Assembly (NCBI GenBank): GCA_030655055.1
Contig: JAURWH010000122.1
Location: 1-35,490, forward strand
Source: a bacterium
GTDB taxonomy: Bacteria; Edwardsbacteria; AC1; EtOH8
Reading direction: 5' to 3'
Length of the DNA: 35,490 nucleotides
Translations under genes and position numbers: made by a program
Shown here: piece after piece, positions 7,400 to 34,246 of the stretch
Numbering within the stretch: the first letter of the stretch is position 1
How the letters are laid out: each line of letters starts with the position of its first letter
Notes under the pieces: generated by a model
What the model saw: the letters and a program-made list of their open reading frames with translations, nothing else
Told to the model about the DNA's origin: nothing
The model's database searches: none

Positions 7400-10306
7400 A
7401 TGAATAAAGTTCGTACGGTAATCGTGCTGTTTGCAATGGTATTGTTTGCATTTAACGCATTTGCCATTTACGACTGGCAGCCATTACAGCAAAATAATTT
7501 AATATCTGCGATAACCAACTATGGCCAGCTGGGGCAGATTATGGGCGGTAGTGGTTCATATACCTTTTGGCCGGCCCCGGCCTTGGATATCTATGGGAAT
7601 ATTGCTCCCCCAGCCATGAATTATGTTTATGGCTGGGGTCTGTGGGTCGGCGCGCAAACTAAAGACGGAGACACCCTAGTAACCGTAGGTTATAATCCCA
7701 ACAATTCTACCGGCGAATTTACCGCTGGTGCGGTTATTGGCGGGGTAGCTCAGAACGTAACAGACCCGGGTGTAAAAATATATGTATCCACCGAGTCCGA
7801 CTGGCCGCTAAAGAAGACCAACGGCCAGGACAGTATAATATCCATGTGCGATACCAGATGCGTTTATAATGATTACCTGACATCAAACCACGCTGTTGGC
7901 GGAGTGCCGCTTAAGATCGAAGTAACGCAGACGACATATCAGTGGAGTACGCCGGGCCTTCAAGACATTATATACCTAATGTTCGAAGTAAATAACACCG
8001 GCACAGACACCCTGTATAATGTTTACCTAGCCCCCACTGCCGACTGCGACATCGGGAACGAATCCAGCGCGCCCAACGACATCTGCTATTATGACACTAC
8101 CACCAACATGGCTTACCAGTATCAAACATCTTCAACCGAAGTCGGTTGGACAAGGCAACCGGGCTGCGTGGGCCTCAACTTTCTGCAGGGCCCAATCGCC
8201 ACAAAAAACTACACATACCCTGACGCAAGGCAAATATTTGCCGGGGATACTTTGGGGTTAACACACTTTAAGATTTTTAGTCTGGCCATAGATCCGCCAA
8301 CAGATATTGATCAGTATAAGGAGCTGGCTGGATATGATTACACAACCGGAACATATGCAGCATTTGATCCGAAACCGGGCCAAGCCGACCAGCGCTTTAT
8401 GGAATCCACAGGTCCCATTGATATTGCACCGGGGCAAACTGCCAGGGTCATCGTCTGCCTGATCTGCGCCAATTATGATTATGGGTACATGTTCACAAAT
8501 GATACCCTGGCAATCAAGGAACTAAGGGAAAAGGCCAGGACGGCAAAAATTGTTTTTGAGAACAGCATAGTTTATAACCAAACCCAGATCACTCTGACCG
8601 CCCCGGCCGGCGGAGCCGTTCTTTCCGGAACCCAGAACATAACCTGGACCTACGGCGGCAATGCCCTTGCCACTGATACGGTTGATCTGTATTACAGCCC
8701 TAATGGGTACTCCTGGGATTCGCTGTCTTTCAACCGGCCCAATACTGGCAGCTACAGCTGGAACACAATCGGCCTTTCCGACGGCATAAAATATAAAATA
8801 GCCGCCATACTTCACGGGCCACAAAAACTGGCTTCATCGGTCAGCGATTCGTTCCTGGTAGTAAACAATGCCGGTAATGCGGCCCCGGAATTGCTGATGG
8901 CGGTGCCCGATACTGTGATCTGCGGAAACTATTCCTGGAAATGGATGGCCGGAGACGCTGACCAGGACGAATTGATCGTCAGCCATTATGTGATGCGGGA
9001 AGGCACCGGTGCTTGGCAGAAAGTGGCCGGGACCATCTCCTCCACCCCCAACAACACCCAACAGTGGCTGGAATACGACTATACCTGGAATACCGACACC
9101 ATGCTTAATGCCGATTATAAATTAAAAACAGTGTGCTATGACGGACAAGTAACAACGACGGATAGCTCAATTAATTATTATCAGTTGTTCAATCAGAGGG
9201 TTCAATACCCCGGGTCGGTGTCGGGCCACAGCACCCTGCCCGTTAATTGGTACACGTACAACCCATCTTTGATCAACGGCCACAGCTACGAAGCCCGCTT
9301 TAAAGGAATTGTTAGAGGGGCCTATAACAGCACTTACGGTAAATACGCCGCCAGCTATAAATATGACCTTTGGGACGTAACCGGAACAACCTTATGTTCG
9401 GCCGGCTGGATCATACCGGAAACTTACACCAGTTTATTCTATTACAAGGATGGTACGGGACAGCCCTGGTCTGGCTTTGCCATCCTTTGCGGCGACACCA
9501 CCTTTAAGCCAAGCCAGGGAACATTTGACTCGGTAATCCGGCCAGTTACAGATCTATCCACAGACACACTGTATTGGGCTTCAATAAACATTCCAGACCT
9601 TGGATGGGCCAAGCTTAATGGCAATTACGAGATCCGCTGGCATGTCACGGGCACAAATCCCACCGACACGTTATGGCCGGAAGTGTGGGATTTAACTTAT
9701 GGAGTCCAGGTTCCATACGATTCAACCATACTAAATAATATTACCACCCCCAGTTGGAATCTGGGGGGCACAAGTGCGGGGTTGGGTCGCAGGTATATCG
9801 TTAATGTTTCTAATCTTTATCGCAAGTTCATGAATGTATGTGGCATGCGGTTTTTCTTTAAAAATCCGACCCACACCGCAGTTGGTCTGGACATGACCTG
9901 GGCCACCCATCCCCAGGAAGGCGATGTATGGAACATCTATTCTTCCGGCCCCATTCCGCCGCGGGATGGTGATGTTTACAGCTTTACGCCCACCAGCGTA
10001 GAAGGTGCCCCAAGCGAGATATCCGCCGCCTCCTTCCTCCTGCAACAGAACGCACCGAATCCCTTTAAGCAAGCAACCACTATCAATTATCAATTGGCCC
10101 AGCCGGGGATGGTGAACCTGAAAGTCTACAACATCGCCGGGCAATTGGTGAAGACGCTGGTCAGCGGGAAGGCTGGCGCCGGGCCGCACTCGGTCAAATG
10201 GAACGGCCGGGATAACGCTGGCAACAAAGTGTCATCAGGCATATATATCTACCGGCTACAGGCAGAGAACAAGGAAATGACAAGGAAACTGGTAATCCTC
10301 AGGTAA
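7400..10306 (+). CDS. Large secreted protein with C-terminal FlgD-like/T9SS-type sorting domain
   Basis: A 968-residue exported protein. A Sec signal peptide covers about residues 1-22 (cleavage after FNAFA). The mature part is rich in Tyr, Thr, Asp and Asn. A middle region starting LTAPAGGAVLSGTQNITWTY (roughly 400-490) looks like an Ig-like repeat. The last 90-odd residues match the FlgD-type Ig/Por secretion C-terminal domain: QQNAPNPFKQATTINYQL, then VYNIAGQLVKTL, WNGRDNAGNKVSSGIYIYRL and a basic end. Such domains direct type IX export in Bacteroidota and are very common in FCB candidate phyla. No catalytic motif was recognised; a structural, adhesive or surface-layer role is possible. 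It is flanked by its own promoter and terminator. Confidence 0.85.
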   Translation: MNKVRTVIVLFAMVLFAFNAFAIYDWQPLQQNNLISAITNYGQLGQIMGGSGSYTFWPAPALDIYGNIAPPAMNYVYGWGLWVGAQTKDGDTLVTVGYNPNNSTGEFTAGAVIGGVAQNVTDPGVKIYVSTESDWPLKKTNGQDSIISMCDTRCVYNDYLTSNHAVGGVPLKIEVTQTTYQWSTPGLQDIIYLMFEVNNTGTDTLYNVYLAPTADCDIGNESSAPNDICYYDTTTNMAYQYQTSSTEVGWTRQPGCVGLNFLQGPIATKNYTYPDARQIFAGDTLGLTHFKIFSLAIDPPTDIDQYKELAGYDYTTGTYAAFDPKPGQADQRFMESTGPIDIAPGQTARVIVCLICANYDYGYMFTNDTLAIKELREKARTAKIVFENSIVYNQTQITLTAPAGGAVLSGTQNITWTYGGNALATDTVDLYYSPNGYSWDSLSFNRPNTGSYSWNTIGLSDGIKYKIAAILHGPQKLASSVSDSFLVVNNAGNAAPELLMAVPDTVICGNYSWKWMAGDADQDELIVSHYVMREGTGAWQKVAGTISSTPNNTQQWLEYDYTWNTDTMLNADYKLKTVCYDGQVTTTDSSINYYQLFNQRVQYPGSVSGHSTLPVNWYTYNPSLINGHSYEARFKGIVRGAYNSTYGKYAASYKYDLWDVTGTTLCSAGWIIPETYTSLFYYKDGTGQPWSGFAILCGDTTFKPSQGTFDSVIRPVTDLSTDTLYWASINIPDLGWAKLNGNYEIRWHVTGTNPTDTLWPEVWDLTYGVQVPYDSTILNNITTPSWNLGGTSAGLGRRYIVNVSNLYRKFMNVCGMRFFFKNPTHTAVGLDMTWATHPQEGDVWNIYSSGPIPPRDGDVYSFTPTSVEGAPSEISAASFLLQQNAPNPFKQATTINYQLAQPGMVNLKVYNIAGQLVKTLVSGKAGAGPHSVKWNGRDNAGNKVSSGIYIYRLQAENKEMTRKLVILR

Positions 10307-16860: not shown

Positions 16861-18834
16861 ATGCGGAAAAACACGCTGTTGTTGGCTTTGACTCTGCTGC
16901 CTTCACTGCTCTTTGCCCAGGCCATCAAGTTTGAGTTCTCCAACATCCGGTTCAAGTCCGGCTCGGCGGTGATAGAAACCGCCACCCTGTCTGCCCTGGA
17001 TACTCTGGGCCAGTTCCTGATGCGCTCCGGGGCCAGGGTGGAAGTGGCCGGACACACGGACAACGTGGGCGATAAAAGGAAAAACCAGAAGCTTTCCCAG
17101 CAGCGGGCTCAATCGGTCTGCAATTACCTGACCACCAAACACCGGATAGCGCCGTCCCAATTGACAGCCAAGGGCTACGGCGACCTGATCCCGCTGATGC
17201 CCAACCTGACCGATGAATACCGGGCCAAAAACCGCCGGGTGGAAATAACGGTGCTCTCCAAGATCCGCACCGCCAGGCTATCCTATCTCCAGGGCAATGT
17301 ATTTACCCGCAAACAAGGGATCAGCAGATTCCAGCCGGCCAGCCTGGGCCAGGTGCTGACCATCCTGGATGAAGTGGTAACCGATTCCACCGGCCGGGCC
17401 GAGGTAACGTTTGACAACGGTTCCCGGGTGAGGGTGAATCCCGGGTCGGACCTGGTGATTGAAGAACAGTCTTGGGAGACAGGGAACAAAAAGGCCCAGA
17501 TAGGCCTGAACTTGATCGCCGGAAAAGCCTACGCCAGGATCAGCAAGCTGGGGGACAAAAAAGAAAGCTTTACGCTGGCGACGCCAACTGCGGTATCCGG
17601 GAAGGGCACCGAATTTGTAGTGGAATCAAAACCTGACCGGACCGCTCTGTTATCGGTGTGGGAGGACAATGTCCTGTGGCGGGGGCGGGCCGCCAATTCG
17701 ATCGACAAATCTATCGCAGCCGCCCAGGGGAGCCGCTGCCTGTCAGGCCAGCATCCGGAACTGGCGGAAAACCTGCCCAAGCCGCCCATGCCTAAAGCCC
17801 CGGCGGCCAACGACACGTTCTTCTATAATCCCGACAAGCCCAAAAACATAAAGTTTACCTGGAGCCGGAGCGAAGGGGTCAAAACTCATCTGATCGTGGC
17901 CCGGGATTATGAGCTGAGGGAGGTGGTGGCCGACATCATCACCGAAAAAGAATCTTTCAGTCTTAAGCCGGGAAAGACCGACGACGTATTTTACTGGATG
18001 CTGACGGCCCTGGATGAAATCGGACTGGAAGGACAGCCCTGGCCAACCCGTACCTTAAGGCTGGTCCGGAAGGTCGAAGGGCCGAGATTGCGGATCGGGC
18101 GTCCCAAGATGGGAGAGAATGTAAAACAGCTTAAGCTGCTGGTGGATGGTTCCACCGACCTTAAAGCCGAATTAACCATCAACGGCAAGCCCGCCTTGCT
18201 TTCGGCCGCCGGGGATTTCAGCGAACTGATACTGCTGAAGGCAGGTGAGAATGTGATCACCGTGGCCGCCACCGACCAGGCCGGAAATGAAAGCACCTCC
18301 AGCCTCAAAATATTCTGCGCCCCCACGCCCGTGGTTGATGCTTCGCTGACCATTGGGGCAATAAAGCTTATGGGAGGCGAGGCGGACGCGGCCTCTCTGG
18401 GGTTATCGGGCACAGCCAGGCTGATCTACAATCTTAACCAGTACTGGGGGCTGGGAGTGGCCGGCGGTTATGGGCAGTCGGGGGTTGAGGCCGATGATTG
18501 GGAGCCTAGATCGGCAGATTTTACCACCACTGCTGTTCCGGCGTCAGCCATTGGCCGTTTCACGATCCTGCCCGAGGCCAAGATGTCTCCTTATGTTACC
18601 TTTGAGGCCGGTGCGGTGTTCTGGCAAAACAAGTTGTCGGGTGTGACCCAAACCAGCGGAACAGCTTTATTCGGAGCACTGGGATCGGGAGTAAGGTTTA
18701 CCGTAAACGAAAGGGTAAGCATTTTAGCCGACGTGTCAGCCGGGTACATGATGGCGGACACAGTCAATGCCGGTTCGATAGACAAGAACAATCTTATCAT
18801 CAGGGGCGGAGCGGGAGTGATGTTGGGGTTTTAA
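16861..18834 (+). CDS. OmpA-FecR-type fusion with C-terminal barrel-like domain
   Basis: An unusual 657-residue envelope protein. Signal peptide about 1-19 (SLLFA). Residues 23-134 are an OmpA-type peptidoglycan-binding domain (GHTDNVGDKRKNQKLSQQRAQ, D67 and the R125/R126 pair), at the N terminus instead of the usual C terminus. Residues about 140-265 resemble a FecR domain (GSRVRVNPGSDLVIEE, FTLATPTAVSGKGTEFVV). Next come a beta-rich stretch and a segment like a bacterial Ig-like fold (roughly 395-475, GENVITVAATDQAGNES). The last 160 residues look like an 8-stranded barrel ending in GVMLGF. It may tie the outer membrane to peptidoglycan while sensing or scaffolding. It has its own promoter and terminator. 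Confidence 0.82.
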   Translation: MRKNTLLLALTLLPSLLFAQAIKFEFSNIRFKSGSAVIETATLSALDTLGQFLMRSGARVEVAGHTDNVGDKRKNQKLSQQRAQSVCNYLTTKHRIAPSQLTAKGYGDLIPLMPNLTDEYRAKNRRVEITVLSKIRTARLSYLQGNVFTRKQGISRFQPASLGQVLTILDEVVTDSTGRAEVTFDNGSRVRVNPGSDLVIEEQSWETGNKKAQIGLNLIAGKAYARISKLGDKKESFTLATPTAVSGKGTEFVVESKPDRTALLSVWEDNVLWRGRAANSIDKSIAAAQGSRCLSGQHPELAENLPKPPMPKAPAANDTFFYNPDKPKNIKFTWSRSEGVKTHLIVARDYELREVVADIITEKESFSLKPGKTDDVFYWMLTALDEIGLEGQPWPTRTLRLVRKVEGPRLRIGRPKMGENVKQLKLLVDGSTDLKAELTINGKPALLSAAGDFSELILLKAGENVITVAATDQAGNESTSSLKIFCAPTPVVDASLTIGAIKLMGGEADAASLGLSGTARLIYNLNQYWGLGVAGGYGQSGVEADDWEPRSADFTTTAVPASAIGRFTILPEAKMSPYVTFEAGAVFWQNKLSGVTQTSGTALFGALGSGVRFTVNERVSILADVSAGYMMADTVNAGSIDKNNLIIRGGAGVMLGF

Positions 18835-18908: not shown

Positions 18909-18946
18909 AAAAAGAGGCCTCCTTTTAGGACGGCCTCTTTTTTATT
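18909..18946. terminator. Bidirectional terminator between the OmpA-FecR gene and the TonB receptor gene
   Basis: AAAGAGGCC (18911-18919) pairs with GGCCTCTTT (18932-18940), with an inner TCCT/AGGA stem and one bulged C. A T tract follows on the plus strand and, read on the minus strand, CTCTTTTTCTT. It sits between convergent genes. Confidence 0.85.
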
Positions 18947-19064: not shown

Positions 19065-21434
19065 CTAAAATTCAATTATTATTCCGGCGGTCAGATTGAG
19101 CCCATACTGGTAGATCGGCTTTCGCTTTCCGTCCCAGGTGTACTGGTATTCCCAGATGTTGGGGTAGTTGGTGAGGTTGTCGATCTCAAAGTAAGACACC
19201 AGCCCCACCCTGTCCCAGAACCAGCGGCGCTGGGCGTGGAAATCCACCCGATTGTATGGGTCGGAGCGTTCCGTGTTCAACTGCACCTGCTCGTCAATCT
19301 GCCAGAGCCTTAGCTCGGGGTGCATGATCATCGGGGTGTAGGGCCGCCCTCCCAGATAGCGCCAGCGGATGGAATACTCGGTCTCATCCCCCGGGAAAAT
19401 GGGAATTACGGACAGGGGCAGGAACCACCATTTGTAACGCATGTCCACGTACCACAGTTTTTCCTTAAAGTCGTTGCGGTAGCCGGCGATGGCGGTAACG
19501 ATGTTCCGGTAATCATAATCCCAGTCGTAGTAGGTGCCGGGATAACGGGGATCTTCCATCTGCGAAGTGGTGTAGGAGTAGCTCAGGGTTCCCCAGAAAT
19601 TCTCCTTGACTTTCTTCTGCAGGAACAGCTCCACTCCCTGGGAATAGCCCCGGCCCTGGTTGACATAGACGTTGGACCGGTCCAAAGGATCGGATGTGGT
19701 CAGAACCCTCTGTATGGGGACATCGCGGAAGGTCTTGTAATAGGCCTCAACGGTGCCCTTGATGTCCTCGGCAAAAATATGTTCCAGCCCGGCCACAAAC
19801 TGATCGTTGTATTTGCTCTTCAGCCTGCGGTTGGCGGTGTCTATGCCCAGCTGATACCAGTCGGGCGGCTGATAGCAGCGGCCGTAGGAAAAGTTAAGGG
19901 CGGTGTTTTCAAATACCTGGAAACTGGTTCCGATCCGGGGCGAAATGTCCATCTGGGAGGTATAGTCAACATAGTCGAAACGAAGACCGCTGCGCAGGGT
20001 GAAAAATGACACCGGTGTCCAGTTGTGCTGCAGATACCCGGCATAGCGCCAGGGCCAAGGATATTTATTGATTTTAAGGTTGTAAATATAGCTGGTTGTG
20101 CCTGTCACTGCTCCGGTAGCGGGATCATATATCAGCAGAGTATCCGGCTTAAGCCAGATATCGTTGTTTACTTGGGTGTTTCTGACGGCAAACCCCAACC
20201 CCAGTTCGTTCTTTTTGTCGGAAGAAAGGTAGAACCCCATGTCCATCTTAAAGGCGGTCTCGCCCTCGTCAGCATAGGCCCGGTAGGTTTCAATCCCGCT
20301 GGTGTCGGCCTCGGTCTGGGTCCAGTGGTTAAAGTTGCGGGAAATGGTGTGAATGGTATAGCCCTGAGGATAGACAGTATGGACGCTTGCGCCCACTGTG
20401 TATTGCCAGGAACTGTAGTTGACGGAATTCTGATAATCCTCCTTAAGCGCGTTCTCGATATCCAGCCGGTAATCATCCTTTCCGTAAAGGGCCAGCACTG
20501 TCACTTTCTGGTGCGGGTTTATATCGTAGGCAAATTTGCCCTGAAGGTTGGAATAATGGGGAATTCCGGTGATGCCGAAACGAGAGCGGATGAACGATGG
20601 ATAACTTTTGTGATAGGAAAGCAGAAAAGAAGAGGAGGGAACAAAGGGTCCTTCCCAGGTAAGACCCAGTCCGGAGATGCCGCCCTCGGCCTTGAGTCGT
20701 TGTTCTTCGCGAACCCCGTCCCGGAGTTTGATATCCATTACCGAAGAAACCTTGTTGCCGTACTTGGCCGGAAAGGCCCCGGTGTAAAAATCCATCTGCC
20801 GGATGAAGTCGGTATTGATGATGCCTACCGCACCCCCGGAAGCCCCCTGCTTGGAAAAATGGTTGGGGTTGGGGATCTCGATATTGTCAACCAGGAAAAG
20901 ATTTTCGCCGGCGTTCCCGCCCCGGACTATGATCTCGTTGTTCTGGTCGGCCACCGAGGCTACTGAAGGCAGCGCCTGCACCGCCCGTTGGACGTCGAAA
21001 TATCCTCCGGGCTGGGCTGCGATCTCTTCAAAGTCCATTCGATGGGAAGAGGAGATGGCATCCTTAGTCTTTTCAAAAAAAGTGGATCGGACTACCATTC
21101 CGGACATGCTTAAAGGTTTTACCCCCATATCCACCTCCAGCGGAGTAGACATGACGGATCGTACCAGCACCCTGTTCTTTAGGATGACCTTGTAGCCCAT
21201 CCGGCTGAACCTCAGATTATAATATCCGGAGGGAATATTGGGAATGTTAAAATTGCCGTTGCTGTCGCTGATGGCCCCAAGCGAGGTGTTGACCACCGTG
21301 ACGGTGACTCCCATCACAGGCTCATGGTTGGCCTGGTCATAGATCTTGCCCTTGATGGAGCCGGGTAAGGCCAGGGCTCTTCCTCCCGCAAGCAGCAGGA
21401 TTAGGACTAATCCAAATATCCGGAAGAATTTCAT
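19065..21434 (-). CDS. TonB-dependent receptor with N-terminal carboxypeptidase-regulatory-like domain
   Basis: A 789-residue outer-membrane gated channel. Start at 21434: an AGGAGA ribosome binding site lies about 5 bases before, and MKFFRIFGLVLILLLAGGRA is a signal peptide. After cleavage near residue 22 there is a carboxypeptidase-regulatory-like beta-sandwich (about 24-105, SIKGKIYDQANHEPVMGVTV), as in SusC-type receptors. A plug domain follows (IIVRGGNAGENLFLVDNIEIPNPNHF is its core), then a long barrel ending in GIIIEF. It is the last gene of an apparent four-gene minus-strand operon and starts 19 bases after the upstream Kelch lipoprotein gene stops. The ligand is unknown. A classic N-terminal TonB box was not seen. 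Confidence 0.93.
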   Translation of the reverse strand: MKFFRIFGLVLILLLAGGRALALPGSIKGKIYDQANHEPVMGVTVTVVNTSLGAISDSNGNFNIPNIPSGYYNLRFSRMGYKVILKNRVLVRSVMSTPLEVDMGVKPLSMSGMVVRSTFFEKTKDAISSSHRMDFEEIAAQPGGYFDVQRAVQALPSVASVADQNNEIIVRGGNAGENLFLVDNIEIPNPNHFSKQGASGGAVGIINTDFIRQMDFYTGAFPAKYGNKVSSVMDIKLRDGVREEQRLKAEGGISGLGLTWEGPFVPSSSFLLSYHKSYPSFIRSRFGITGIPHYSNLQGKFAYDINPHQKVTVLALYGKDDYRLDIENALKEDYQNSVNYSSWQYTVGASVHTVYPQGYTIHTISRNFNHWTQTEADTSGIETYRAYADEGETAFKMDMGFYLSSDKKNELGLGFAVRNTQVNNDIWLKPDTLLIYDPATGAVTGTTSYIYNLKINKYPWPWRYAGYLQHNWTPVSFFTLRSGLRFDYVDYTSQMDISPRIGTSFQVFENTALNFSYGRCYQPPDWYQLGIDTANRRLKSKYNDQFVAGLEHIFAEDIKGTVEAYYKTFRDVPIQRVLTTSDPLDRSNVYVNQGRGYSQGVELFLQKKVKENFWGTLSYSYTTSQMEDPRYPGTYYDWDYDYRNIVTAIAGYRNDFKEKLWYVDMRYKWWFLPLSVIPIFPGDETEYSIRWRYLGGRPYTPMIMHPELRLWQIDEQVQLNTERSDPYNRVDFHAQRRWFWDRVGLVSYFEIDNLTNYPNIWEYQYTWDGKRKPIYQYGLNLTAGIIIEF

Positions 21435-21453
21435 TGCTTCTCCTGTCATTAAA

Positions 21454-23043
21454 TTACCTTTTAATATCTGACAACGGATGATATTCTTCAACCCAGCTTA
21501 TTACGTAGGGGTTGCTTCCCCCGATGGCGTAAATATAACCATTATTCTCGGCCGCTCCCAAACCCATTCTGGAATTCAGCATGTCTCCTTTATAAATCCA
21601 AGCATTAAGGGCAGGATTGAGCATCTCTACCCTTCTTATAATAGTGCCGGTAGTTCCCCCCATGACATAAACGCATCCATTGGCCACAGCTGCAGCCCCG
21701 TCGCTGCGTGCCTTTAATAGGTATGGCTTGCGAAGCCACCGGTTGGTAGAGGGTTCAAAAGCGTGAACGGTGTTTAGGGGTACGCTAGGACTGCCTAACG
21801 TGCCGACAGTTCTTCCCCCGATCACATATATTTGATTGCCCAAAATAGTTGTGAAAAAAGAACTTCTAACGCCGACCATGTCGCGTTTAGGTTTCGGGTT
21901 CCAACGGCCGGTAAGGGGATCGTATTCCAAAACGGATTTTGTATAATACTCATATACTTCGCCGATGGCGGTAGCTCCCCCAAAGATATATATTTTATTA
22001 TTGACTGTTCCTGCCCCCAGCCCAAAACGGTGTTTGTTCATGGTGTCTTTGACCGACCAGACATTAGAAACCGGATCGAAAACCTCTATTATATTGTACA
22101 CATAATCTTCAGACCGGCCACCGAAAACGTATATGCTGCCATTCCATACAGCCGCTGCCGCCTGGGTTCTGGCTGTCGGCATAGGGGTCCTGCCTATCCA
22201 AACATCTGAAGCTGGATCGTACTCTTCTACCACCGCCAACACCCTGCCGGAAGCCTGCTGGCCGCCTATGGTGTATATCTTGCCGTTAACAGCGGCCGTG
22301 CAAAAGTTGTAACGGGCCGTAGGCATAGAGGCCTTTATAAACCAGGGGCTAGTCCTGGTGGTAAAGGCAGAGAGAGGGCCGGTGGCAATTGCTCCGTGGT
22401 TGTCCGAGGCCGCTACTTTCCAATAATAGTCAGTGCTATAGTCAAGGCAGCAAGCTTCAAAAGAGGTATCTGAGGTGGAGCCTTTTGCCGGCGGACTAGA
22501 GGTGCCGCCGACATATATTATATAGGACACGGTGTCGCTGATGCCATCCGGGTCGTTGCAGTTCCAGCGCAGATCCAGAGTGGGGTAAACGTTTGTTGTG
22601 CCGTCCAATGGCGAGACATATCCCGGAACGGTCGGGGCAGCATTGGCATGCGGCAAGGTGGCGAAGCGCCAGACCGGTCCCGAGGTGGTTACTCCCTTGT
22701 CGTCGGTGACATATAGTTTCCAATAGTAAGTGGTATTATAGCTTAGCCCGGTCATAAAATAGCTGGGAGAGGACAATCCAGAAACTATTTTAGCCTCTGG
22801 CGGATCAAGGGTGTCAAGATAGACCTCATAGGTCATAACATCGCCAGAGTTTGGGTCGGTGGCGGTCCAGCGCAGGGTGACATCAAGGGTGGTGTGGTCG
22901 ATATTGGTGGCACTATCGGGGGGATAGGGGTTAAAGGGAGAATTGGGCGCGTTGTCTATCTCCTCCGGCTGGCGCTTTGTGCAGGAGAACAGACATGCAC
23001 CAATAACAAAAGCTATAAGCAAAAGTGGCAAAGATCTATTCAT
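21454..23043 (-). CDS. FN3-Kelch surface lipoprotein (copy nearer the receptor)
   Basis: A 529-residue predicted lipoprotein. The lipobox LFSC gives C21 (an alternative is C17). C21 is followed by TKRQPEEID, then a proline-rich linker, two fibronectin-III-like domains (about 40-130 and 135-232; the first contains YNTTYYWKLYVTDDKG), and five or six Kelch repeats (about 235-520) with repeated GG-x-x-Y/I-x-x-x-x-x-x-x-V-E-x-Y/F-D-P motifs, expected to form a beta-propeller. A vicinal CCLDYST motif sits in the second FN3 domain. It is paralogous to the next gene upstream. Start supported by an AAAGG site. It is likely a ligand-binding or scaffold partner of the TonB receptor. Confidence 0.9.
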   Translation of the reverse strand: MNRSLPLLLIAFVIGACLFSCTKRQPEEIDNAPNSPFNPYPPDSATNIDHTTLDVTLRWTATDPNSGDVMTYEVYLDTLDPPEAKIVSGLSSPSYFMTGLSYNTTYYWKLYVTDDKGVTTSGPVWRFATLPHANAAPTVPGYVSPLDGTTNVYPTLDLRWNCNDPDGISDTVSYIIYVGGTSSPPAKGSTSDTSFEACCLDYSTDYYWKVAASDNHGAIATGPLSAFTTRTSPWFIKASMPTARYNFCTAAVNGKIYTIGGQQASGRVLAVVEEYDPASDVWIGRTPMPTARTQAAAAVWNGSIYVFGGRSEDYVYNIIEVFDPVSNVWSVKDTMNKHRFGLGAGTVNNKIYIFGGATAIGEVYEYYTKSVLEYDPLTGRWNPKPKRDMVGVRSSFFTTILGNQIYVIGGRTVGTLGSPSVPLNTVHAFEPSTNRWLRKPYLLKARSDGAAAVANGCVYVMGGTTGTIIRRVEMLNPALNAWIYKGDMLNSRMGLGAAENNGYIYAIGGSNPYVISWVEEYHPLSDIKR

Positions 23044-23111
23044 TTAGTGCCTTTCTATTTATTCTGCAGATATTCTTGCGAAGGTCCTTTTTGCCAACAT
23101 CTGCCGAACGA

Positions 23112-24692
23112 TCACGGATCAAGACCGATCTGATATTCTTCGGTGATCAATACCGGGTAAGGGTCAACTCCGCCAACCACAAAGATACTATTGTTCAATG
23201 TGCCGCCGCCACAGCCGGACCGGGAATTCAGCATGTCCCCCCGCAAGGCCCAGGCATCCGTTGCCGGATCATATTTTTCAACCCGGCGCAAATATTCACC
23301 GTTATAGCCACCGATCAGATAAAAACAACCGTTAGCAACAATGCCCAGGCCTGCAGTACGAGGGCCGGAAAGTTCCATCCCGTAAGACCAACCTCCGGTT
23401 GAAGGATCAAAAATGTTAAGGGCATTGGAAAAAGTGTTATTCCACGGCTCGAAGCCCCCTGCAACATATATTTTTCCGGTTATCGCGCCCGACATGGTAT
23501 TGATTCTGGCATAAGGGGGCCACACCACTATGCCCCGGGGCTTTTTCAATTTGATCCATCGGTTTGTCGCCGGGGTGTATACTTCTACAACTGCATAAAT
23601 TCGGGAGATGGCAGGATAGAGGCCGCTGACGGCATAGATAAGGCCATTCACCGATTGGGCGGTAAGGCCGTACCTGGGCACGATCATTGGGCTTTTAGTG
23701 GTCCAGCTGTCGGTGGCCGGGTCATATACTTCGGTGGCCCCGACGATGGAGTCGGTGATGTTTTTCCCTCCTACGGCATAGATGAGACCATTGACCGTGG
23801 CGGCCGCCAGATTGTAACGGGGCGTAGGCATTGGATTCCTTATCGTCCAGCTGTTTAGCCCGGGATCATATTGCTGAACCGTTCCGGTGGCGGTGTTGTT
23901 TTCGTCGGTTCCTCCGATAACGAATATCTTATTGTTAGCGGTAGCTGTGGCAAACCCTTGCCGCGGCAGAGGCATTGGTTCTCGCAGAAACCAGGGGCTT
24001 TCGCGGGTGGTAAACCGGGCCAGCGGCCCGGCGCTTACCGCTCCGTGATTGTCGGTGGCGATCACCTGCCATCGGTAAAGGGTGCTGTAATCAAGGCAGC
24101 AGGCTAGGCAGCTAAAGCCCGGAGTGGATTTGATGAGCGAGGGGACAACGGTCGGACCGAGATATATGTCAAAATTCACAGTATCGCTTATCCCATTTGG
24201 TTCTGAACTGCTCCAGGCCAGCTGTAAGGTGGGGTAAGTGCCAATGGTATCATTTAACGGCTCCAGGTAAGTTGGAGTAACGGGTGCGGTATTGGCATGC
24301 GGCAAGGTGGTGAAACTCCAGACCGGTCCCGAGGTGGTTACGCTCTTGTCGTCGGTGATATATAGCTTCCAATAGTAAGTGGTATTATAGCTTAGCCCGG
24401 TCATGAAATGGCTCGGCGACGATAAGCCGGAAATCATCTGAGTTTCGGGTGGATTCAGGGTGTCAAAATATATGGCATAGGTCAGGACATCGCCGGAATT
24501 GGGGTCGGTGGCGGTCCAGCGTAAAGTAACATCCAGAGTGGTGTGGTCAACGTTTGTGGCGCAGTCCGGCGGGTAAGGGTTGAACGGAGAGTCGGGCGCG
24601 TAATCTATCTCCTCCGGCTTGCGTTTGGTGCAGGAGAGCAACGCCAGAGCCAGCCCGGCCAGAAGAACCGCAAAACAATATTTTCGCAACAT
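23112..24692 (-). CDS. FN3-Kelch surface lipoprotein (upstream paralogue)
   Basis: A 526-residue lipoprotein with the same layout as its neighbour: lipobox LLSC with C21, conserved CTKRKPEEID, two FN3-like domains, and a Kelch propeller of about six repeats (for example IYAVGGKNITDSIVGATEVY). The second FN3 has the same CCLDYST motif, here as CLACCLDYST. The start at 24692 is supported by GGAGG seven bases upstream. It lies 18 bases after the stop of the TPR-metallopeptidase gene and 68 bases before the paralogue. The first FN3 domain is nearly identical in the two paralogues even at DNA level, whereas the propellers differ clearly. Confidence 0.9.
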   Translation of the reverse strand: MLRKYCFAVLLAGLALALLSCTKRKPEEIDYAPDSPFNPYPPDCATNVDHTTLDVTLRWTATDPNSGDVLTYAIYFDTLNPPETQMISGLSSPSHFMTGLSYNTTYYWKLYITDDKSVTTSGPVWSFTTLPHANTAPVTPTYLEPLNDTIGTYPTLQLAWSSSEPNGISDTVNFDIYLGPTVVPSLIKSTPGFSCLACCLDYSTLYRWQVIATDNHGAVSAGPLARFTTRESPWFLREPMPLPRQGFATATANNKIFVIGGTDENNTATGTVQQYDPGLNSWTIRNPMPTPRYNLAAATVNGLIYAVGGKNITDSIVGATEVYDPATDSWTTKSPMIVPRYGLTAQSVNGLIYAVSGLYPAISRIYAVVEVYTPATNRWIKLKKPRGIVVWPPYARINTMSGAITGKIYVAGGFEPWNNTFSNALNIFDPSTGGWSYGMELSGPRTAGLGIVANGCFYLIGGYNGEYLRRVEKYDPATDAWALRGDMLNSRSGCGGGTLNNSIFVVGGVDPYPVLITEEYQIGLDP

Positions 24693-24710
24693 TGTACAAC
24701 CTCCGAGGTT

Positions 24711-25850
24711 TTATTTGTTAAGACTGTCTTTCCAACGCTGCTCAAATTCATCAACGCTTATTCCATAAGTTTCCCTGAAGGCCGGGGCGAAACCGGAACC
24801 CTGCTGTATTTTGGAAAAAAGCAAACGGACGAAGGCCCAGTCGTACTGGCTGGTCAAATAATAGGCGGCCGAGAGACTGGCCTTGTAGGCCTGCAGGGCC
24901 TGGTCTGGCTCCAATCCGGTAAAGGGCTTTTGCAGTTCCTGCAGGGGGAGATAAACCTGCGCCTTTGGCACCAGGCCTTCTAGCAGCATGGCCAGGCCCT
25001 CATTCAGCCAGGCGGGACATCGTCCGCCGGTCATGTCGTAGATGGCGGCGTGGGTGAATTCATGGGTCAGCACATTCTTAAGCAGCTGCCGGTCGTTCTG
25101 GTAATTGGCCACCGGGATCCGAATCCGGCCGTCGAAGGCGGCGCCGGCCCAGGAGGCCAGATGAGTGATGTCCCGGAACTGCTGGTCGCTGTAGAGGATG
25201 ACGCTGGTGTTGCCCCGGATGCGGTGACCCAGCTCGCTGCCCACCCGGTCCCGTATCTCCTCCAGCAGCATCAGCACCTGGCCGGACACTTCACGGTTCT
25301 CCGCCCCCTCGAACCGGATCTCAAAATAACCGCTGCGGTCCTGCTCAAAGCCCTGCTCGGTCTGGTTCTCCCTGGTTAACTGGGCTAGGCGCTGGACGAT
25401 GTCCGCGTTGTTGGGCAGGGCGCGGTTGGCCGTTTCCAGCAGGCAGATGGCCGAATCGTTCCGGTTGTCCAGGCAAAAGGCCTGGGCATTAAGATAATAT
25501 ATGACGGAGCTGATAAGAGAATCCTGCCTGGCGGCGGCCCCCAGTTCCAGCACTTTTTGGAAATCGCCCTGGCGGTAGTTCAAGACCATCTCATTGCCGT
25601 ATACCGTGGCCAGATTGGCCCGGATCCCGGAGTCTCCCGGTGCCAGGCCCAGGGCCTGTTTCAAGAGTCTGGCCGCCTGCGCAAACTCTCCTTTTTGGGA
25701 AAGTGCCACCGCCCGGTTGGAAAGCTCCACCGCCTGTTCCCGCCGGGCCGTCTGTTCCAATTTCAACCGGTGTTTTTGGTAAGCCTTGAACAGGAACATT
25801 GCGGCGGCGGCAACCAGCAAAACTGCGGCCACCCGGAATACAAATTTCAT
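24711..25850 (-). CDS. Membrane-anchored TPR protein with metallopeptidase (MA clan-like) domain
   Basis: A 379-residue protein. Residues about 5-24 form an uncleaved signal anchor, followed by a charged, coiled-coil-like stretch. TPR-like helices run about 40-155 (AVALSQKGEFAQAARLLKQALGLAPGD). From about 176 there is a gluzincin-type peptidase domain with HEFTH (H263, E264, H267) and a downstream glutamate in WLNEG (E284), the zinc ligands expected for peptidase MA-like proteins. The catalytic set appears intact. It is the first gene of the operon leading to the two Kelch lipoproteins and the TonB receptor. It could process an envelope protein of that system. No strong ribosome binding site is seen. 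Confidence 0.85.
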   Translation of the reverse strand: MKFVFRVAAVLLVAAAAMFLFKAYQKHRLKLEQTARREQAVELSNRAVALSQKGEFAQAARLLKQALGLAPGDSGIRANLATVYGNEMVLNYRQGDFQKVLELGAAARQDSLISSVIYYLNAQAFCLDNRNDSAICLLETANRALPNNADIVQRLAQLTRENQTEQGFEQDRSGYFEIRFEGAENREVSGQVLMLLEEIRDRVGSELGHRIRGNTSVILYSDQQFRDITHLASWAGAAFDGRIRIPVANYQNDRQLLKNVLTHEFTHAAIYDMTGGRCPAWLNEGLAMLLEGLVPKAQVYLPLQELQKPFTGLEPDQALQAYKASLSAAYYLTSQYDWAFVRLLFSKIQQGSGFAPAFRETYGISVDEFEQRWKDSLNK

Positions 25851-25943
25851 AGAATGATCCGTATTAGTTTTTTATCGACAGCCCGAAGGACTGCCCAGTC
25901 CCAACAGTAAGGGAGGCGGTGGTCTGCCGGGCAATTAAAAGGA

Positions 25944-26513
25944 TCACCGGCCGGCAAATATTTTTATCCTGGTCTTCTTGTCGATAGCCTTCCACTGGCC
26001 GGTCTTAAGGTCCCCCAGGGAATAATTGCCGATCTTCACCCGGATCAGACGCAGGGTGGGATGACCCACCGCCGCGGTCATCTTGCGCACCTGGCGGTTC
26101 TTCCCCTCGGTCAAGGTGATCTCCAGCCAGCAGTCGGGGATGTTCTTCCGGACCCTGATGGGCGGGATGCGGGCGGGGATCTCCGGCTGGGGGGACAGGA
26201 TCATCACCGAGCAGGGCAGGGTTTCCTGCTGCTCGACAACGATTCCGGCCTGGAGTATTTTTAGGGCCTGGTCCGAAGGGATGTTCTCCACCTGGGCCCA
26301 GTAGGTGCGGGAGTGTCCGCGCTCGGGGTTCAGTAAAAGAGCGTTAAGTTCCGGCTCATCGGACAAAAACAGCAGACCCTCGGAGTCGGCGTCCAGCCGG
26401 CCCAGGGAGTAGATGTTCTTGGGAAAGCGGAAATCGGCCAGGGTCGTGTTTTTGGAGCCGTCGGCAGTGAACTGCGACAGCACTCCGTAGGGCTTGTTGA
26501 AGGCTATGAGCAT
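25944..26513 (-). CDS. Pseudouridine synthase, RluE-like
   Basis: A short (189-residue) RsuA-family pseudouridine synthase without an S4 domain. It begins MLIAFNKPYGVLSQFT, matching the RluE-type start, and has GRLDADSEGLLFL with catalytic D41. It also contains GKNRQVRKMTAAVGHPTLRLIRVKIGNYSL, the typical C-terminal motif. RluE of E. coli modifies U2457 of 23S rRNA; the same target is plausible. It is probably a single gene: 93 bases separate it from the operon that follows on the minus strand. Confidence 0.9.
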   Translation of the reverse strand: MLIAFNKPYGVLSQFTADGSKNTTLADFRFPKNIYSLGRLDADSEGLLFLSDEPELNALLLNPERGHSRTYWAQVENIPSDQALKILQAGIVVEQQETLPCSVMILSPQPEIPARIPPIRVRKNIPDCWLEITLTEGKNRQVRKMTAAVGHPTLRLIRVKIGNYSLGDLKTGQWKAIDKKTRIKIFAGR

Positions 26514-26600
26514 GTTTAAGGGGTAATCTTTCTGATCCCCTTCCCCATAGAGAGAAAAGAAGAGGTCAAGTAATTTAGGGCCAGGGAAGGCCCGGTTCCG

Positions 26601-28364
26601 TCATTTGAATTTTAAGATGCCGTAATTCTGGGTGAGGTAATCCCAGTTGTATGTCCAAAAAACTAGTTGATTCTTGGATTGCTGCTTGCGCCGGAGGTTC
26701 ATCCGAAGCTGGCTGTCTTTGCCAAGTTTCGCCAAGCCGATGTCCTTTAACGGCAGCTTCATTTCCATGATCCATTCATTATCCTTGCGGGCGCACTGAA
26801 TCTGGTAATTGCCGTTCCAACCCTCATTTTTTACGTCGCGGACGTTGTCCACCATCTGGTCCCAGATTGTGCCCATCGGGTTGACATAGATCTGGTAAAC
26901 GGTGTCCTTGCCGGGCGCCAGGAAAAAGCCGACATAATCGTCCCTGTTGACCGGCTGGTCACGGACGGTCATGGTTGCTTTGATCCTGGCCATGGCCGTG
27001 TCGCGGCATACCGCCGCCACATAAAGGTATTCGGCATCGTGCAGGAAATAGAACTTTGTGGAATCAGTTTGAGCGGGGTCGGTATAGGCTTGGCAGAACT
27101 CCACCGCCTTGGCCGCCCCCCACCATTCACTGCCGTCTATGTTGCCGTCGATCTCCGGGGCCTTCTTGGTCTTGGGACATTCGATTATCTTGGCAATTTC
27201 CGGGGCGTATTTTTCTATGTTGAAAAACTTGTCCCGGCCGAAAGGATAGGATACTTTCATCAGGGGCAGGGGATATAAAATACCAGAGCCTTTGAATTTA
27301 AAGGATTTTTTCAAGGTATCTCCCGGGGCGATCTCCACTTCGGTCTCCGGATCAAGGGCTTGCCAATTCTTGCCTATTTCCCAAAGCACTTTGGTCTTGA
27401 TGTTCTTGTCGGTCATATTGAACAGTTTCAGGTCCGCTTGGAATTCCTTGGGGGTTTTCCCTTCAAGAAATGAAGGTCCCCGTAATTCAACGGCCGGCCA
27501 GATCCCATTATAGGCAAAAATCTCTTCCTTAAGGTTGACCCAGTCCGGATCAAAGGTGTTCCCGGCCCGCACCAGCGCCGGGCTGGCTTTCCCGTCCTTG
27601 ACGGTGACCCAAAGATACTGGTAAAAGACAGCCAGGCTGGGATTCTCTGACGGTCCGATCTCCGAACCGGAGCTGCCCATCACCACGTAGCGGATGCCGT
27701 CGTAAACTTCGGAAGCATATTGATGCCAGTGCCCGGTAAACACTGCGGTCACCTTGTATTTCTTAAAAAGGTCATGCAGCCGGTCAGGTTTGCCGGCCCC
27801 TATTCCAGCAGCCCAGAGGGGCTTGTGCATAAAGACGTAGATCCCCGCCTTGTTCTTGAGGGCTTTTAGGTCCTTCTCCAGCCATTTGAACTGGGCTTCA
27901 TCCAGCCTGTCGGCGGTTTCCACCAGGGAATTATCCATTATGATAAAATGGCTGTTCTGGTGGTCAACGGAGTAGTAGGGATTGCGGCCGGTCTTTTTAA
28001 TGAAAAGGTTGCGGACATCGGGGGTAGTAATGTCATGGTTGCCGGGGGTGAGATACACCGGGCAGGAAAGCAGTTTGAGCGCCGGCAGGGTCTGGTCCCA
28101 GTCCCTGACCGTTCCGGCCGAATCCTTGTAGCCCTCGATCAGATCGCCCACCGTCACCACAAAATCGGGACGCATCCGCTCAATATCCTTAAGCACCATT
28201 TCAAAGGCTTTTTGGTTGGGAGTGTTGGTGCGGTCTCCCAGCACCACAAACCGGAAATTGTCCCGGGGTGGTTCGGCAAAGGTTGTCTTCGCTTTTTTGG
28301 CAGCCCAACCAGCCTGGCTCAGGACCGTTGCGAGGAGCAAAAGGAACAGCAGGGATCTTTTCAT
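26601..28364 (-). CDS. Exported metallophosphoesterase with C-terminal CBM9-like domain
   Basis: A 587-residue exported protein. Signal peptide about 1-21 (SQAGWA). A calcineurin-like phosphoesterase domain covers about 36-230 with metal-binding residues D44 (GDR), D74 (GDL), N109-H110 (GNHD), H180, and H212/H214 (GHWH). The first motif has Arg where many relatives have His. Residues about 230-385 form a beta-rich linker domain. About 400-587 resembles a carbohydrate-binding family 9-like domain (PEIDGNIDGSEWWGA, then TDSTKFYFLHDAEYLYVAA, and a tryptophan-rich end). The substrate could be a phosphoester on a surface polymer; this is inference. A GGAGG ribosome binding site precedes the ATG. 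Confidence 0.88.
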   Translation of the reverse strand: MKRSLLFLLLLATVLSQAGWAAKKAKTTFAEPPRDNFRFVVLGDRTNTPNQKAFEMVLKDIERMRPDFVVTVGDLIEGYKDSAGTVRDWDQTLPALKLLSCPVYLTPGNHDITTPDVRNLFIKKTGRNPYYSVDHQNSHFIIMDNSLVETADRLDEAQFKWLEKDLKALKNKAGIYVFMHKPLWAAGIGAGKPDRLHDLFKKYKVTAVFTGHWHQYASEVYDGIRYVVMGSSGSEIGPSENPSLAVFYQYLWVTVKDGKASPALVRAGNTFDPDWVNLKEEIFAYNGIWPAVELRGPSFLEGKTPKEFQADLKLFNMTDKNIKTKVLWEIGKNWQALDPETEVEIAPGDTLKKSFKFKGSGILYPLPLMKVSYPFGRDKFFNIEKYAPEIAKIIECPKTKKAPEIDGNIDGSEWWGAAKAVEFCQAYTDPAQTDSTKFYFLHDAEYLYVAAVCRDTAMARIKATMTVRDQPVNRDDYVGFFLAPGKDTVYQIYVNPMGTIWDQMVDNVRDVKNEGWNGNYQIQCARKDNEWIMEMKLPLKDIGLAKLGKDSQLRMNLRRKQQSKNQLVFWTYNWDYLTQNYGILKFK

Positions 28365-33430: not shown

Positions 33431-34246
33431 TTATTTTGATCCAAAACTGTGCTGGGTGGCCCAGCTTTCGGCCAGCAAGGTGTAATAGCCCCTGGTGGTG
33501 TCTGACATGGCGTAGAACACATAACGAACCACTTCGGTGCTATTTAGGGAGAGAGAGCCTGTGCCGGAACCATCAACAGTAAAGCGGTAGTCGCCGGTTA
33601 ATGTGCCCAGTTCATAGCCGCTGCCGGTGTAACAGGGCCAATTGCTGCAGGTAAGAGTATAATGTCCCTGATAATCGTTGGCGGCGATGCTGACGCTGTC
33701 GAAGGTAAATGACCAGGTGAAATCGTAGCTGGCCGGTGAATATACTCCCCAGGTCCAGAATCCCTTGATATGCAAGGCGTCATAGTCATGCATAACCTTG
33801 CCATGATACTCAAAGTAGGCGGTGGATGTATCGCTATATGTCCAGTACCACTCCACGGTATCTGGAGCTACGACCGTCGGGCTGAATTTGATCTTCCACA
33901 GCCAAGAATAGTTGGTTGTGTCGCTGCCGGCGCTGTCGGGGTAGATGATCCCGGAGGTGTTCCAATACAAGTAATACCATCCGCTGCCATCGGGCCCCCA
34001 CCAATAAGTGCTATCATAGTCTGCCTTGCCGGAGGTTTTCTTAAATCCGGAAAGATAACCGCTGAAATCACTGATGCCGGCATCGCAGGCCGTGGCCATG
34101 CCTTCCCCGGCGCTGGCGGCATAGGTTTGCTGGGTAACGGCGGGGTCCGCTGTTGGCGGGGGCGTCTCGGTCGGGGTGTCCTTGCTGCAACCGAAGGCCG
34201 CCAGAGCGATCATAACCAAGGCCAAATACAGTTTGATCTGTTTCAT
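33431..34246 (-). CDS. Putative lipoprotein, Trp/Tyr/Ser-rich beta protein
   Basis: A 271-residue lipoprotein with lipobox AAFGC (lipidated C20), followed by a short Thr/Pro linker. The mature part is rich in Trp, Tyr, Ser and Asp with many beta-strand-like segments (for example YLYWNTSGIIYPD, EWYWTYSDTSTAYFEYHG), so an all-beta fold is likely. No family was recognised. The start is backed by an AAAGGAG ribosome binding site and by a promoter inside the end of the aldolase gene. Two cysteines (SNWPCYTG and one near residue 54) might pair in the periplasm. Confidence 0.85.
   Translation of the reverse strand: MKQIKLYLALVMIALAAFGCSKDTPTETPPPTADPAVTQQTYAASAGEGMATACDAGISDFSGYLSGFKKTSGKADYDSTYWWGPDGSGWYYLYWNTSGIIYPDSAGSDTTNYSWLWKIKFSPTVVAPDTVEWYWTYSDTSTAYFEYHGKVMHDYDALHIKGFWTWGVYSPASYDFTWSFTFDSVSIAANDYQGHYTLTCSNWPCYTGSGYELGTLTGDYRFTVDGSGTGSLSLNSTEVVRYVFYAMSDTTRGYYTLLAESWATQHSFGSK

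Follow-up and report, generated by a model that had tools for sequence, protein, structure and literature searches.

Beta-propeller lipoproteins acting on TonB-dependent transporters have been described in Bacteroides, where BtuG caps the transporter BtuB (PMC10404256) and XusB caps XusA, a transporter with an N-terminal carboxypeptidase-like domain (PMC13142918). Lipoprotein-capped transporters were considered seemingly exclusive to Bacteroidetes by the authors of the BtuBG study (PMC10404256). In a genome of Candidatus Edwardsbacteria (G000; 2.37 Mb, 98% complete), a gene for a lipoprotein with a predicted propeller likewise lies beside the gene for a TonB-dependent receptor, which is the arrangement of BtuBG and XusAB. 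The window, that is the whole stretch of 35,490 nucleotides that was analysed, contains the following features around this pair.

18909-18942, no strand assigned: bidirectional intrinsic terminator closing the unit (-20.6 kcal/mol, z -4.0, T-run on both sides)
19065-21434, minus strand: TonB-dependent receptor with signal peptide, CarboxypepD_reg-like domain, plug and barrel
21454-23043, minus strand: Kelch B, FN3-FN3-Kelch lipoprotein (open reading frame, Pfam, structure model)
23112-24692, minus strand: Kelch A, FN3-FN3-Kelch lipoprotein (open reading frame, Pfam)
24711-25850, minus strand: TPRM, membrane-anchored TPR-gluzincin with HEFTH ... NEGLA (open reading frame, Pfam, motifs)
25944-26513, minus strand: RluE-like pseudouridine synthase, the upstream neighbour of TPRM in the genomes of groups g1 and g4 (see below)
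26601-28364, minus strand: MPE, calcineurin-like phosphoesterase with a CBM9-like domain, an upstream neighbour co-directional with the unit

The four packed minus-strand genes that a preceding sequence-only reading had reported are all present as open reading frames, and the gaps of 18 (TPRM/Kelch A), 68 (Kelch A/Kelch B) and 19 bases (Kelch B/receptor) are exact. The receptor gene starts with ATG at 21434 (an alternative in-frame start, TTG at 21491, would extend it into Kelch B), and AGGAG/GGAGG-like ribosome-binding sites were observed upstream of the receptor and Kelch A genes. No terminator-like site was found in the three intergenic gaps, folding of each gap was no better than that of shuffled sequences, and the strong terminator lies only after the receptor gene, so the internal terminators that the same reading had named as an objection to a common transcript were not found in the gaps. 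Judging from this layout, TPRM, Kelch A, Kelch B and the receptor gene would be read as a single transcript and form a probable operon. The convergent gene on the other side of the terminator (16861-18834, plus strand) encodes an unusual combination of OmpA, FecR, Glucodextran_B and OMP_b-brl domains, and it occurs in eight of ten genomes of the phylum. Elsewhere in the window, a plus-strand gene (7400-10306) encodes a 968-aa protein with a C-terminal FlgD_ig/Por_Secre_tail sorting domain, which hints that Edwardsbacteria have a type IX-like secretion signal.

The receptor matched the Pfam family CarbopepD_reg_2 and, above the cut-off, Plug (PF07715) and TonB_dep_Rec (barrel, PF00593), and with the plug and barrel (22-strand type) domains, and four TonB_C matches in the window genome, it is a TonB-dependent receptor. 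The SusC-like N-terminal domain of the sequence-only reading is there as a CarboxypepD_reg-like domain, but this domain is generic, and the receptor reached only 50.7 bits on the SusC/RagA model TIGR04056, whose cut-off is 368.25. The structure model of the receptor (pLDDT 72.5) was closest to receptors for siderophores and cobalamin, among them entries for E. coli BtuB and for BtuBG of Bacteroides, and no SusC entry was among its top 50 folds. The SusD family (PF07980) was found in none of the ten phylum genomes, while the Bacteroides control genome gave a match; the comparison with SusCD systems drawn in the earlier reading is thus given up. A PDB sequence search with the receptor gave no useful match, and no Rfam family was found in the window, so that no riboswitch gives a clue to the substrate.

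Both Kelch proteins contain Pfam Kelch_1 repeats (5-6 per protein; E-values of 1.8e-54 and 1.7e-48), an N-terminal FN3-like part and a lipobox-like motif (LLSC and LFSC), which agrees with the earlier description of two FN3-Kelch lipoproteins, and they are 52% identical to each other. In the model of Kelch B, which was based on an alignment of four sequences, the propeller is mostly confident and the FN3 part poor; its closest PDB folds are Kelch domains, e.g. NS1-BP (TM 0.90, normalised by target). The Kelch_1 scores and the NS1-BP match indicate that the Kelch repeats would form a beta-propeller. A Kelch mutarotase of the NanM/YjhT type (sialic acid) was considered and rejected, with 40.1 bits on TIGR03547 (cut-off 256) and 47.9 bits on NF010730 (cut-off 416).

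The first gene of the unit, TPRM, matched Peptidase_MA_2 and TPR in Pfam, in agreement with the TPR-gluzincin of the earlier reading, and the score for Peptidase MA (PF13485) was 43.9 bits against a cut-off of 32.4. With this family score, the HExxH motif and the glutamate of the downstream NEGLA motif, TPRM is a Peptidase MA gluzincin; HEFTH and NEGLA are invariant in seven TPRM orthologues, and no named NCBIfam family was reached. TPRM has no lipobox but a hydrophobic anchor at its N-terminus, so its probable location is the inner membrane.

To place the unit in the phylum, ten genomes were compared: the three of genus g1, namely G000, the near-complete second species G001 and the third species G002, and seven others (G003-G009). 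The full four-gene set was found in two of the ten, G000 and G001, which share the order mnmG, OmpA/FecR-like gene, receptor, Kelch, Kelch, TPRM, RluE (L045:15384-15953 in G001) and MPE. Co-directionality and gene order are kept in G001, and the gap between Kelch and receptor is 20 bases there. In the ten genomes, the receptor (E at most 1e-30) was present in G000, G001, G003, G004 and G006, and the TPR-peptidase in the three g1 genomes and four g4 genomes, which means that receptor and peptidase never occur together outside g1. The co-directional unit of a lipoprotein pair and a receptor is thus upheld by the second species, but co-occurrence of the four families is not general, and the conserved synteny in relatives that the sequence-only reading had proposed as a check was found in G001 only.

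In the four g4 sister genomes, the TPRM orthologues lie among ABC-transporter genes in the order MPE, RluE, a 297-aa protein (in most), LivG, TPRM and LivF (Liv names from sequence reading), with no Kelch gene or receptor nearby; in some of them LivG or LivF is not adjacent to TPRM. This bears on the possibility that the Kelch lipoproteins or the receptor are processed by the TPR-gluzincin, or that it joins in envelope signalling, for which its first place in the tight cluster and its retained catalytic motifs would speak. With orthologues in four sister genomes that have no such neighbours, and with a hydrophobic anchor and probable inner-membrane location in place of a lipobox, such a role is very unlikely. 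A dedicated four-gene system is rejected because TPRM and the receptor do not occur together in the family outside the genus, and TPRM is better seen as a passenger or a general envelope factor than as a dedicated subunit. The dedicated envelope protease drops out of the earlier hypothesis of a surface uptake, adhesion or signalling complex; what stands is a unit of two propeller lipoproteins and a receptor kept in two species, and the action of propeller lipoproteins with a TonB-dependent transporter is an established principle (BtuBG, XusAB).

The genes for MPE, the RluE-type pseudouridine synthase and the TPR-gluzincin remain near each other in both g1 and g4 (24711-28364 in the window; loci L083-L086). 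In G039, a genome of another family, the gene of an MPE homologue shares 4 bases with the start of a receptor gene of 45% identity (L047:7734-11830), and receptors in L060 are likewise followed by a gene with weaker likeness to MPE; an old link between receptor and phosphoesterase is possible. MPE as the partner of the receptor was set aside as a lead, since in Edwardsbacteria it travels with RluE and TPRM whether the receptor is present or not.

In G002, the gene order is MPE, RluE, an unknown gene, LivG, TPRM and Kelch. The frame of this Kelch gene (L082:3874-4300) is broken after about 100 codons, where a multicopy repeat of that genome starts, and a second contig (L156:97-781) carries a frameshifted Kelch remnant with a LivF-like gene directly after it; the Kelch gene of G002 is a split, decayed pseudogene. 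On the simplest reading of these contigs, Kelch would have entered between TPRM and LivF. No receptor was found in G002, and the DNA beyond its OmpA-like gene differs. At the place of the receptor (L130:7600-8800) lie tandem repeats of short units and, beside a small ORF, a stretch that looks to the eye like an integron attC site.

Receptor homologues in other phyla had no adjoining Kelch, TPR-peptidase or obvious lipoprotein partner; of the best matches that were inspected from an FN3-Kelch profile run over 386 genomes, none from another genus lay next to a receptor; and a receptor search of the GTDB contig collection found no relatives. Such a restricted set could be an accident of the neighbourhood, in which a rearrangement lined up unrelated genes that form no functional system, in a layout too young to have decayed. 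The separate histories of the three modules in the phylum and the limitation of the set to two species fit this reading, but the frames are intact and the short gaps are kept between two species whose genes flanking the Kelch pair show a dS of about 0.6-1.1, and we regard it as unlikely.

To display the divergence within the unit, G000 and G001 were compared along the segment. The modules of the Kelch proteins are as follows.

24288-24605, minus strand: first FN3-like module of Kelch A, homogenised with the module of Kelch B
22639-22956, minus strand: first FN3-like module of Kelch B, with the same within-genome homogenisation with the module of Kelch A
23115-23996, minus strand: propeller of Kelch A, 37% aa identity between species, codon identity at random level
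21457-22347, minus strand: propeller of Kelch B, 39% aa identity between species, codon identity at random level

In its mode of evolution the Kelch pair stands well apart from nearly all of its surroundings. The Kelch genes are 42-46% identical between the two species (range by alignment), and their neighbours reach 87% (receptor), 85% (TPRM), 88% (OmpA-like), 90% (MnmG), 94% (RluE) and 73-74% (MPE). Of 24 window ORFs compared with G001, all but the Kelch pair and 33431-34246 were at 65-99%; the latter (minus strand) is a small lipoprotein-like ORF with no Pfam match and 32% identity to its syntenic counterpart. Nucleotide identity is about 0.8 at the signal peptide of Kelch A, drops to 0.42-0.67 from codon 35 onwards, has a short peak of 0.80 at the lipobox of Kelch B and recovers at the start of the receptor. 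At propeller sites with the same amino acid, the codons are identical in 37-39% of cases between species, compared with a random expectation of 38% derived from codon usage and with 65% in neighbouring genes (p about 1e-7 to 1e-8). Since selection on amino acids alone would leave synonymous sites unrandomised, this suggests recombination with divergent donors, or very old alleles that were kept.

The FN3 modules group in the opposite way to the signal peptides. Within a genome, the first FN3 modules of the two Kelch proteins share 82% (G000) or 92-93% (G001; 93% at the nucleotide level, dS 0.21) of their amino acids, and between genomes only about 60%, whereas the signal peptide of Kelch A is 77% (aa) and 83% (nt) identical between genomes. 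Gene conversion between the two copies in tandem would fit these conflicting groupings, and the pattern as a whole indicates such conversion or a replacement of modules; an independent duplication of Kelch in each lineage is a possible explanation of the within-genome likeness. Silent Kelch copies as donors, as in a phase-variation store, were looked for and found neither in G000 nor in the near-complete G001.

The probable transcription unit is genus-specific and was assembled from modules that are found apart from one another in other genomes. Its starting point would have been an old gene for an envelope TPR-gluzincin in a branched-chain amino-acid-type ABC neighbourhood, behind which FN3-Kelch lipoproteins, in this lineage as two copies, and a receptor of the siderophore/cobalamin class may have been acquired. 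Both Kelch proteins would be lipid-anchored in the outer membrane, each with a six-bladed propeller on a stalk of two FN3 modules; at this tip the propellers would bind a ligand and concentrate it at the receptor or pass it on, and the receptor would import it with energy from TonB. Specificity would shift when a propeller is exchanged or diverges very rapidly, with anchor, stalk and receptor still recognisable, and gene conversion between the copies in tandem would preserve the likeness of their first FN3 modules. Layout, domain composition, the origin from modules and the mosaic divergence are read directly from the sequences; the single transcript, exposure at the surface, binding of a ligand and cooperation with the receptor are inferred.

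That the Kelch proteins are surface ligand-capture lipoproteins assisting the receptor, by analogy with BtuBG and XusAB, is our tentative preference, held at somewhat below an even chance. It is consistent with the tight layout, the closing terminator and their retention in G001, with the lipobox, the predicted propeller fold, TonB in the genome and the small-molecule class of the receptor, with the XusA-like carboxypeptidase-type N-terminus, with the mosaic divergence, and with the joint state of G002, in which Kelch is broken and the receptor was not found. Receptor homologues elsewhere without a Kelch partner, a full set in two genomes only and the lack of a riboswitch or any other hint of the substrate speak against it, and with a receptor 87% conserved and propellers about 39% identical it is difficult to imagine a lid with a large conserved interface.

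The divergence of the propellers, uncoupled from the receptor, also suits surface recognition or adhesion proteins (towards cells, surfaces or phage) under diversifying evolution, with the receptor as a co-transcribed neighbour that has a small-molecule substrate of its own. A propeller tip on an FN3 stalk, the receptors without Kelch partners in other genomes and the G002 Kelch remnant in a Liv context without a receptor point the same way, but the spacing of 19 and 20 bases between Kelch and receptor was kept despite strong synonymous divergence of the neighbouring genes. This explanation is rather doubtful, if nearly as likely as ligand capture. The most far-reaching form of the capture reading, in which six-bladed Kelch propellers on FN3 stalks are exchangeable capture heads over a constant receptor, outside Bacteroidota, and recombination between tandem copies and with divergent donors changes the specificity, seems improbable to us at present.

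If the lipoproteins serve the receptor, lipoprotein-assisted TonB transport extends to a distant, uncultured phylum that recruited its propeller family independently. Regardless of function, two Kelch genes with random synonymous sites in an otherwise well-conserved segment and with homogenised stalks offer a clear example from nature of how a candidate surface protein diversifies by modules, and this in a group that has no cultures. Among open-licence PMC papers, none was found that joins Kelch lipoproteins with TonB receptors.

Compared with the known systems, the locus resembles BtuB-BtuG in that a TonB-dependent transporter is encoded with a beta-propeller lipoprotein and the receptor model matches BtuB, with BtuBG among its best folds. 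BtuG, however, is seven-bladed and has no FN3 stalk, whereas the Kelch propeller has six repeats, two FN3-like modules and two copies, no cobalamin riboswitch was found here with Rfam, and the present system belongs to another phylum. XusA-XusB, a xenosiderophore system, shares the propeller lipoprotein and the transporter with an N-terminal carboxypeptidase-like domain, but XusB is a seven-bladed DUF4374 propeller and no XusC-like PepSY gene was seen here. The SusC-SusD glycan importers also have a lipoprotein gene beside a TonB-dependent receptor with a carboxypeptidase-like N-terminal domain, but the score of the present receptor falls well short of the SusC cut-off, and none of the ten genomes has SusD. 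TPRM has the HExxH and NEGLA motifs of Peptidase MA (PF13485) but differs in being TPR-fused and membrane-anchored. The locus of this genus is possibly a new form of a known principle, propeller-lipoprotein-assisted TonB transport.
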